NCBI GenBank assembly: GCA_023265365.1
Contig: JAHFTY010000018.1
Location: 1-32,783, forward strand
Direction: 5' to 3'
DNA from: Acidobacteriota bacterium
Lineage (GTDB): Bacteria > Acidobacteriota > Terriglobia > 20CM-2-55-15
DNA: 32,783 nucleotides
Both the position numbers and the translations under genes were made by a program. The notes under the pieces were generated by a model that had not been told where the DNA came from, did no database searches, and saw only the letters and a list, made by a program, of their open reading frames with translations. Positions 10,254-21,104 of this stretch are shown here, piece after piece; the first letter of the stretch is position 1; the number at the start of each line of letters is the position of its first letter.

Positions 10254-10306
10254 CCCCGCCTTGGTCAAGGCTGGTCAAGGCGGGGTGCCGCGAAGCGGCG
10301 GGGCGG
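10254..10306 (-). repeat. Diverged inverted copy of the double-hairpin repeat
   Basis: Stem CCCCGCCTTG (10254-10263) / CAAGGCGGGG (10276-10285); adjacent stem GCCGC-GAA-GCGGC (10287-10299), then GGGGCGG. Same architecture as the consensus repeat in reverse orientation. Confidence 0.7.
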
Positions 10307-10325
10307 TTCGTTCATCAAAATCGAT

Positions 10326-10488
10326 TTTTTGAACAGCACCACCCCGGCGCTTCGCGCCACCCTCCTCGTCGAGGAGGGGAAAAACGCATCGCCTCGATCT
10401 CGCTTCATTGGGACAGCAGTGCTTCGACGAGGATGAGGAATGTTTTCGAGTGATTGACTTTCATGACAGGCGAGAGGTAAAACCGTCC
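10326..10488 (+). repeat. Double-hairpin repeat with ~110-nt tail
   Basis: TTTTTTGAACAGCACCACCCCGGCGCTTCGCGCCACCCTCCTCGTCGAGGAGGGGAAAA, then ATCGCCTCGATCTCGCTTCATTGGGACAGCAGTGCTTCGACGAGGA…GGTAAAAC. Matches the reverse complement of 18740-18893. The right boundary is approximate. Confidence 0.75.
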
Positions 10489-12844: not shown

Positions 12845-12897
12845 AAATCGGCCGCATTATAGCCGATGCCGTGGAGAACCCGTACAATTACGGCGCA

Positions 12898-14610
12898 ATG
12901 AAGACGGTCGTGCTCGCATGGTTATTCTTCGTACTGACAGGCCTGTTCACGAGCCTGGTCGTGCCTCTCGGCGAAGGATTCGACGAACCGTGGCACCTGG
13001 GGCTGATCCAGCATCATGCCGCGACTGGCGTCGCCGCCCGGAGACTCGTCGACCCGGGAACTCCGGTCAATCTATCTGTCGAACTCGAACAATTCCTCCG
13101 GCTTCATCCGGTCGGATGGAAACTTCATGAGATATATCCGGAGCTGCAATCGCAGGAGGAGTACTGGCAACAACCGGAAACGGAACGGCGGAAAGCCGAC
13201 GATGCCATTCGAGCGTTGCAGTTCGATAAGGTCTCCTACAGGCAGGGGCAATCTGCGTTCTCCAAACAATACGAGGGCCATCAGGCTCCGCTTTATTACA
13301 CGTCGGCGTCGATCGCGTTTCTGGGCGCTTCCCTCGCACTTTCGCTGACGAACACTTTCCTGTTGATGCGGATCCTCTCCGTTTTAATGGCCTCCGCAGT
13401 GGTTCCACTGGCCTACGCCCTGGCGAAGCGCATTGCGTTGTCCGAAAGCTCAGCGGACGGCGTTGCCATACTGGTCTCCATGTTCCCGGGTATTTATCCC
13501 GGCATCGCACGTGTGTCCAACGACGCCCTGGCCGTTCCTCTCGCGGCGGCGATCTTCCTGGCGCTCGTACGCTTCATTCAGTCTCGATCGAAGCAGGATG
13601 CGAGGCTCTTGGCCTGGACCCTGGCCGCGGGCCTTCTCACCAAGGCGATTTTCATTCCCTTCTTCGTGGCGATCGCGATCGCACTGGCCTCCCTGAAGGA
13701 ATTTCGATCGTTGAAAACGGTTGGCGCGTGGTCCCTGGTTGGCTGGATCGCCTACGTTCCCAACGTGCTCCGGTCCGGATCGCTTACCGGTCTGCCCGAA
13801 ACGGTCGATGCAGGTACGAGCATCGGTTCGTCGCTGGCGGCCCTTTCCCACTTGAACTGGATCGACATGTTCCGGCTGACGGCGGTGTCGCACATCTGGA
13901 TCGGCAACTTCTCGCTGCTGCAATACCGGTCGTGGATTTACAAGACGGTGATCGTGTTTTTCATCGTGGGACTGTGCGGCTTTATCGCAGCTCTAAGAAG
14001 AGGGATGTATCCGACGGCCTCAAGACCACCCCGGCGCTTCGCGCCACCCCTCGTCGAGGAGGGGAAAATGAATCGCCTCGGCATTTTCCCCTCAATGAGC
14101 CGGGGTGGTCCCGCCAACTCTCTCGACTTCCTGAGCATCCAGGCGATCGTTCTTGTGTATGCAGTCTTCGGTGCGTCGCTGATCTACTACGCCACGCAGG
14201 TTTACCAACAGGCAGGCATTTCCGTCATCCAGGGTTGGTACCTGTCGCCGCTCGTTCCGGTCGAAGCCCTTGTCTTCGTTCTCGGCATCGAGTTCTTGTT
14301 TTCAAAGCGCAGTGCCCGCCGGGTCACCGCCGTCGTGGCTTTCTGTTTTCTCGCCATGATCCTTTACGGAACGGCTTTCATCGAGGCTCCTTACTACACC
14401 GGGCTGACGGATCACGGGCCGTCGGGGTCTCTCCGCGCCTATCATCCGCACTGGGAAGACGTTGGCCTCATGGGAGAACGTTTGACCCGGTTTCATCTAT
14501 GGATTCCAAAGGCGGCGCCTCCGGTTCTTGGCATGACTGTCCTTATCGCGGGTCTCTTCTTAATATGGTCATACGCATCGCAGCACTCGTTCTTGTCTTC
14601 CCGGCATTAG
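12898..14610 (+). CDS. Polytopic membrane protein, GT39/PMT or DUF2142-like glycosyltransferase
   Basis: GEGFDEPWHLGLIQHH near the N-terminus and multiple predicted TM segments. ORF track start 12871; ATG 12898 (MKTVVLAWLFF) looks more natural. Contains an in-frame palindromic repeat at 14024-14110. Confidence 0.75.
   Translation: MKTVVLAWLFFVLTGLFTSLVVPLGEGFDEPWHLGLIQHHAATGVAARRLVDPGTPVNLSVELEQFLRLHPVGWKLHEIYPELQSQEEYWQQPETERRKADDAIRALQFDKVSYRQGQSAFSKQYEGHQAPLYYTSASIAFLGASLALSLTNTFLLMRILSVLMASAVVPLAYALAKRIALSESSADGVAILVSMFPGIYPGIARVSNDALAVPLAAAIFLALVRFIQSRSKQDARLLAWTLAAGLLTKAIFIPFFVAIAIALASLKEFRSLKTVGAWSLVGWIAYVPNVLRSGSLTGLPETVDAGTSIGSSLAALSHLNWIDMFRLTAVSHIWIGNFSLLQYRSWIYKTVIVFFIVGLCGFIAALRRGMYPTASRPPRRFAPPLVEEGKMNRLGIFPSMSRGGPANSLDFLSIQAIVLVYAVFGASLIYYATQVYQQAGISVIQGWYLSPLVPVEALVFVLGIEFLFSKRSARRVTAVVAFCFLAMILYGTAFIEAPYYTGLTDHGPSGSLRAYHPHWEDVGLMGERLTRFHLWIPKAAPPVLGMTVLIAGLFLIWSYASQHSFLSSRH
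14024..14110 (+). repeat. Double-hairpin repeat inserted in frame within a CDS
   Basis: GACCACCCCGGCGCTTCGCGCCACCCCTCGTCGAGGAGGGGAAAATGAATCGCCTCGGCATTTTCCCCTCAATGAGCCGGGGTGGTC. Outer inverted repeat GACCACCCCGG/CCGGGGTGGTC, inner GAGGGGAAAATG/CATTTTCCCCTC; length 87 nt. Confidence 0.85.
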
Positions 14611-18569: not shown

Positions 18570-18595
18570 CTACGGTTTCGTTTTTCTTGAACAGC

Positions 18596-18893
18596 ACCAC
18601 CCCGGCGCTTCGCGCCAACGATAATTCTGGGTCAGACACCTCGGCGCCCATTTTCGGTGGGGTCAGACCCTTGCTCCGAATTGTGAAAATTGGCGCCGAG
18701 GTATCTGACCCACTTCTGCCACGGGCTGCTAAACCACGTTTTACCCTCCTCGAGGCTTTGCACAAAAAGTCGCAGGACGAGAAACAACTCAGATGTCTCC
18801 TCGTTGAGGCACCGCTGTCCCAATGAAGCGAAATCGAGGAAAAGCGTTTTCCCCTCCTCGACGAGGAGGGGTGGCGCGAAGCGCCGGGGTGGT
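18596..18893. repeat. MITE-like composite of the double-hairpin family with 22-nt perfect terminal inverted repeats
   Basis: Left ACCACCCCGGCGCTTCGCGCCA (18596-18617), right TGGCGCGAAGCGCCGGGGTGGT (18872-18893); perfect 21-nt palindrome CCCCTCCTCGACGAGGAGGGG at 18851-18871. Confidence 0.8.
18629..18711. repeat. Long imperfect palindrome (REP/MITE-like) nested in the composite repeat
   Basis: GGGTCAGACACCTCGGCGCCCATTTTC (18629-18655) pairs with GAAAATTGGCGCCGAGGTATCTGACCC (18685-18711), 27-bp arms with two mismatches; the loop carries GGGTCAGACCC. Confidence 0.8.
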
Positions 18894-18919
18894 CAGCGTC
18901 GAACGAAATTCGACCTCAC

Positions 18920-21026: not shown

Positions 21027-21049
21027 GCAAAGCCAAAGATACTATCACC

Positions 21050-21104
21050 ACCACCCCGGCGCTTCGTTGCCACACAAAAAGTCGCAGGACGAGAAAACAA
21101 CTCA
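21050..21104. repeat. Chimeric/deleted copy of the composite repeat
   Basis: ACCACCCCGGCGCTTCG (21050-21066) joined via TTGC to CACAAAAAGTCGCAGGACGAGAAAACAACTCA (21073-21104), which matches 18761-18791 apart from one inserted A. Confidence 0.75.

Follow-up and report, generated by a model that had tools for sequence, protein, structure and literature searches.

The window analyzed in the present study, a stretch of 32,783 nucleotides from contig JAHFTY010000018.1 of an Acidobacteriota bacterium, contains the gene of a membrane protein that is interrupted by an 87-nt closed palindromic repeat with the sequence GACCACCCCGGCGCTTCGCGCCACCCCTCGTCGAGGAGGGGAAAATGAATCGCCTCGGCATTTTCCCCTCAATGAGCCGGGGTGGTC (Table 1). 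The sequence-only reading had claimed that a copy of an intergenic repeat is read through here; the element was found at exactly that position, and the open reading frame was free of stop codons across it. The repeat-encoded residues, RPPRRFAPPLVEEGKMNRLGIFPSMSRGGP, include two hybrid codons and carry a net positive charge. The two 12-bp outer arms, GACCACCCCGGC and GCCGGGGTGGTC, formed the sole 12/12 pairing at 87-nt spacing within the window. The folding of the element was compared with that of dinucleotide shuffles, which yielded a z-score of -5.9, with none of the 200 shuffles equally good. The Rfam search gave no match anywhere in the window.

Table 1. Positions of the interrupted gene, the parts of the repeat copy and the intergenic repeat units in the window.
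Feature	Position	Strand	Remarks
Composite of a type B unit (minus strand) joined to a type A unit (plus strand)	10283-10382		Intergenic
Multi-pass membrane protein, 579 aa, PMT_2 / GT-C glycosyltransferase-like	12871-14610	+	Interrupted in frame; PF13231, E=1.3e-6
Helix before the insert (residues 354-376)	13930-13998	+	AlphaFold2, mean pLDDT 52.6
In-frame repeat copy, 87 nt	14024-14110	+	29 codons net; entry after codon position 1
Left outer arm GACCACCCCGGC	14024-14035	+	
Stem 1 (GGCGCTTCGCGCC hairpin), part of the core	14033-14045	+	
Stem 2, CCCCTCGTCGAGGAGGGG	14047-14064	+	Commonest form 3 nt longer
Inner palindrome GGGGAAAATG...CATTTTCCCC	14061-14091	+	Junction of two head-to-head half units
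Right outer arm GCCGGGGTGGTC	14099-14110	+	Complementary 12/12 to the left arm
Helix after the insert (residues 415-448)	14113-14214	+	AlphaFold2
Unit ending early after stem 1	18592-18617	+	Intergenic
Type A unit	18835-18896	-	Intergenic; 18856-18894 92% complementary to 14024-14062
Fragment of a unit	21037-21071	+	Intergenic

The host protein had been labeled GT39/DUF2142-like. DUF2142 was not detected, and the protein is better named PMT_2-like: its score against PF13231 (PMT_2) was 29.1 bits at a cut-off of 26.1, and two of its homologues also matched this family. The ncbifam scan of the protein returned no matches. An AlphaFold2 model was built from three sequences, and a fold search with this weak model showed a resemblance to the GT-C enzymes STT3, ALG9 and PMT that was not significant (E >= 0.02). 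In the model, the insert was a coil between the two helices listed in Table 1, with all of residues 378-418 at a pLDDT below 50. The Arg pair preceding the insert, together with the positive-inside rule, suggests that the loop carrying the insert may be cytoplasmic. The insertion is presumably tolerated, as a putative Arg-rich loop. The coding hexamer signal was strong on either side of the insert (0.40 and 0.52) and was gone within it. Excision of the element in silico left an open frame of 550 aa that reads ...RRGMYPTAS-T-ANSLDF....

The sequence-only reading had also expected a clean gap at this loop in orthologues. An alignment was therefore run, and the segment was absent from all eight homologous genes. 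These came from six other genomes and could be aligned to the left and right of the segment, where they shared 27-37% identity in the alignable parts. At this distance, the empty site could not be fixed to a single base. The loop at the insert position was short and variable in length in the homologues: in the closest one, from a gp5 Acidobacteria MAG, the residues are LRRRKKWRLAP-VLAAYAAF, as against LRRGMYPTAS-[insert]-ANSLDFLSIQAIVLVYAVF in the window protein. A relative from a Candidatus Sulfopaludibacter MAG (L111) likewise carried no such segment. A homologous loop of similar sequence was looked for in repeat-free orthologues and was not found; among the genomes compared, the insert in the membrane-protein gene was seen in one genome only.

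With <=3 mismatches allowed, 532 copies of the repeat core, CACCCCGGCGCTTCGCGCCACCC, were counted in the 4.72-Mb genome, split 265 to 267 between the two strands, and the reversed-pattern control gave 0 copies. Within the same family of bacteria, 87 copies were found in one other genome and 0-8 in each of the rest, and there were almost none outside the family. The contexts of the copies were taken from 1.5 Mb, about a third of the genome, with some contigs chosen for carrying copies. This sample held 206 copies, which occurred as single units and as inverted pairs: 26 neighbor pairs were oriented '-+', mostly 54-58 bp apart, and 27 were oriented '+-', 80-271 bp apart. Each unit has a conserved hairpin core with two hairpins in series. 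The elements closed by ACCACCCCGG...CCGGGGTGGT ranged from 52 to 186 nt, and the window copy was among the short ones. A sister repeat, type B (CGCCCCGCCGCTTCGCGGCACCCCGCCTTGGCCAAGGCGGGG; CGCCCCGCCGCTTCGCGGCACCCC), was often joined head to head with type A via GTTCGTTCAACAAAATCAATTTCTTGAACAGCACC, as at 10283-10326 of the window and at many other loci. Being short, palindromic, similar in sequence, present in many copies and located mostly outside coding regions, the repeats are REPs in the broad sense. It was also observed that a separate inverted repeat, TGGGTCAGACACCTCGGCGCC ... GGCGCCGAGGTATCTGACCCA, lies at 18629-18712 of the window between two oppositely oriented units, where repeats of different families thus appear to be nested.

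The window copy was then set against the other members of this family. Its stem 2 has 20 letters compared with 23 in the commonest form, which agrees with the earlier statement that this stem is 3 nt short. The exact 20-letter stem was present in 6 of the 206 sampled copies; since this variant recurs, it is not a change that saved the frame, contrary to what had been proposed. The right half is about 20 nt shorter than in full-length 108-nt copies, such as L002 1501-1608. Over positions 2-47 (46 nt), the window copy was 100% identical to a copy on contig C224, and the insertion looks recent, judging from a left arm identical to that of other genomic copies such as this one.

To account for the spread of the repeat, a linked RAYT was looked for as the mobilizer and not found. 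A single PF01797 gene (Y1 transposase, RAYT-like; L087 1333-2330, C232:32019) was detected in the genome, and the palindromic repeat on either side of it is another one, GTTTGGGGACAGTCCCC / GGGGACTGTCCCCATT; the flank expected for a linked Y1 transposase gene is the repeat sequence ACCACCCCGGCGCTTCGCGCC. No copies of the repeat were found within ~1.5 kb of the 12 PF01797 matches of the family, so no Y1 gene stood near a copy in the genome or the family; the assembly is a draft, and such a gene may be unbinned. In the 12 nt preceding the core, GTAG and CGTC tags were each present in 2 of 206 copies, the downstream side being judged by profile only. No target-site duplication was visible by eye. 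Flanks that continue the palindrome in runs of >=4 were found at 6 of 32 copies, compared with ~3% in controls, which hints that insertion may favor palindromic targets. Examples of such flanks, like GATTAAC/GTTAATC, were seen at L046 282-461, L108 445-624, L126 4756-4928 and L156 9499-9617. At the window copy, only one flanking base continued the palindrome.

According to a simple hexamer caller, 87% of the sampled DNA was coding, and 11 of the 206 copies lay inside called ORFs. Clear internal in-frame insertions were found in three genes, encoding the membrane protein, a GT9 protein and an ImuB-like protein. The GT9 heptosyltransferase (PF01075) on contig C215 carries a 173-nt closed copy in frame (L126 4756-4928); its close relatives (~57-71% identity) lack this copy, matching roughly residues 1-51 and 110-293 with only some dozen residues separating the two parts. 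Three other candidates were discarded: the copy at C305/L109 4895 is in a long open frame and lies upstream of the likely amidase start, that at L094 15765 is in an open frame that has no Pfam match and reads like an antisense frame, and that in L022 is in an open frame that apparently overruns the neighboring gene by chance. The length of the closed elements was a multiple of three in 9 of 25, and their frames were open in 62% compared with 36% in shuffled sequence. With about a third of the lengths multiples of three and ~60% of the frames open, roughly 1 in 5 insertions into coding DNA would be readable by chance. Selection against unreadable insertions is enough to explain the observed pattern, and in-frame insertion is a recurrent, filtered process in this repeat family.

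The gene of the ImuB-like polymerase on contig C171 holds a 180-nt element in frame (L108 445-624), positioned in a linker after DTHRPDAF. Relatives from the family (50-69% identity) aligned on both sides of this element and did not have that insert, and full-length relatives of the protein matched IMS PF00817. The linker was compared across 30 genomes, nine from the family and 21 from other families. Palindromes, mostly of differing sequence, were found in the linkers of 7 of the 9 family ImuB genes, 6 of them in frame and 1 in a broken gene (loci L108, L224-L228 and L243-L249). The linker in the window's own genome (G000) contains a repeat of the window family, and that in G003 contains another repeat, with at least 40 copies in G003. 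Those in G007 and G008 contain related palindromes, the one in G007 being from a high-copy family. An inverted repeat was present in G010 and in G009, where 33 of 34 bases were paired. The weakest inverted repeat (9 bp) was in G006, whose gene is broken at this point, either genuinely or through an error of the assembly. Short ImuB linkers free of such palindromes were found in both genomes of genus g2 and in most of the 21 genomes from outside the family. Common descent would explain the palindromes shared by G007 and G008, not the differing sequences in the other genomes.

Previous studies have reported several systems with which this repeat can be compared. Rickettsia palindromic elements (RPE) are palindromes of ~100-150 nt that lie in frame within unrelated protein genes (PMC10969869, PMC3733652). 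The sequence-only reading had cited them as the precedent, which is apt: here too, a palindromic repeat lies in frame inside genes, three in this case, and is absent from their orthologues. The present repeat, likened to RPE by description, differs in belonging to another phylum and in being overwhelmingly intergenic, with few in-frame cases. The REPs found in the coding regions of many bacteria are closer (PMC3733652). The GTAG/CGTC REPs described by Di Nocera in 2013 are high-copy short palindromes, often dimers and mostly intergenic; inside ORFs they add 20-30 (up to 82) residues, and their hosts include uvrA and dnaE2 (PMC3733652). The present family shares with them the high copy number, the mostly intergenic location, the occurrence of some copies in ORFs and a repair gene among the hosts; however, it lacks the tag and has two hairpins in series per unit. 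As in REPIN/RAYT systems, inverted pairs of half units form one long hairpin, copies number in the hundreds and abundance is genome-specific, but no Y1 transposase gene is linked to a copy in the genome or the family. Enterobacterial ERIC/RU elements are small, mobile, MITE-like palindromes able to supply coding sequence (PMC2759123), a capacity that the present repeat shares, whereas size and hosts differ and no target-site duplication was seen here. As for MITE features in general, the 12-bp terminal arms are present and no duplication was visible by eye.

Taken together, these observations make it very probable that a non-autonomous mobile palindromic repeat was inserted in frame in a gene for a GT-C-type membrane protein. 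The element would consist of two REP-like half units head to head, a REPIN-like build. A transposase acting in trans, of the single-strand (Y1) type or another, would account for its spread. One copy would have entered the open frame of the membrane-protein gene. Nearly all copies landing in coding DNA were presumably purged, and the window copy may have been kept as its length and frame happened to fit. It probably landed in a loop of variable length that connects two transmembrane helices and is exposed, a place at which a further 29 residues would do little harm. Since about one in five coding insertions would be readable by chance, survival calls for no adaptation of the element, and the insert most likely has no function of its own.

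That the segment is a native loop resembling the repeat by chance is refuted by its match to a further copy in the genome, 100% identical across 46 nt, and by the 12/12 terminal arms, unique in the window; moreover, no homologue carries it. It is highly improbable that the repeat was misjoined into the gene by assembly or binning. The draft does consist of 362 contigs, many ending near repeats, but reads are typically longer than the 87-nt element, which sits within a 32.8-kb contig and has correct gene sequence to its left and right; the frame is kept, and other genes and other genomes show comparable in-frame cases. More weight has to be given to the possibility that the insertion abolished the function of the gene or severely impaired its product. 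In that case, the frame would still be open only owing to the recency of the event and to a length that happens to be divisible by three. The left arm still matches other copies perfectly, and the relatives compared are too distant to test selection after insertion. We nevertheless consider this unlikely: the homologues vary in loop length at the site, the frame continues intact downstream and has a strong coding signal there, and linkers of two other genes display the same in-frame pattern. Conversely, the insert could have been recruited as a positively charged loop, or as an mRNA hairpin that alters translation or activity, and been kept by selection. The recurrence of repeats in the ImuB linker of related genomes would fit such a role, as would the frequent REP tagging of DNA-repair genes elsewhere (PMC3733652). 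Recruitment is very improbable here, as the insert in the membrane-protein gene was found in one genome only and the repeat arm still agrees with the consensus of the genome, with no sign of adaptation at the protein level.

The best-known palindromes that encode protein in frame are those of Rickettsia and of a single survey from 2013. The kind itself is not new, being represented by RPE and by REPs within coding sequence; the novelty lies in the repeat family, in the context with verified empty sites for three genes and in the ImuB linker. The window adds a documented case from Acidobacteriota, with repeats that lack the usual tag and have no linked transposase, and is a real new example of selfish DNA becoming protein, a known route that is rarely documented. 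The contrast between ~530 copies in the genome and the few in genes implies strong filtering of such insertions.

A broader reading would be that, in this family of bacteria, palindromic repeats are time and again attracted to, or retained in, the interdomain linker of the ImuB-like SOS mutagenesis protein, nearly always in frame and with different repeat families in different genomes. On this view, the linker would be a natural site of insertion, through which the protein becomes longer and mutagenesis may be tuned, and the window copy would be a product of the same process. We regard this as rather doubtful. Di Nocera and colleagues observed that the proteins decorated by REPs are often DNA-repair proteins, dnaE2 among them, and that recB was hit by different REPs at nearly the same position in two species of Xanthomonas (PMC3733652), a situation that the ImuB linker parallels. 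Struck by different palindromes in related genomes, this linker offers a testable system for distinguishing neutral insertion from an altered mutagenic polymerase.
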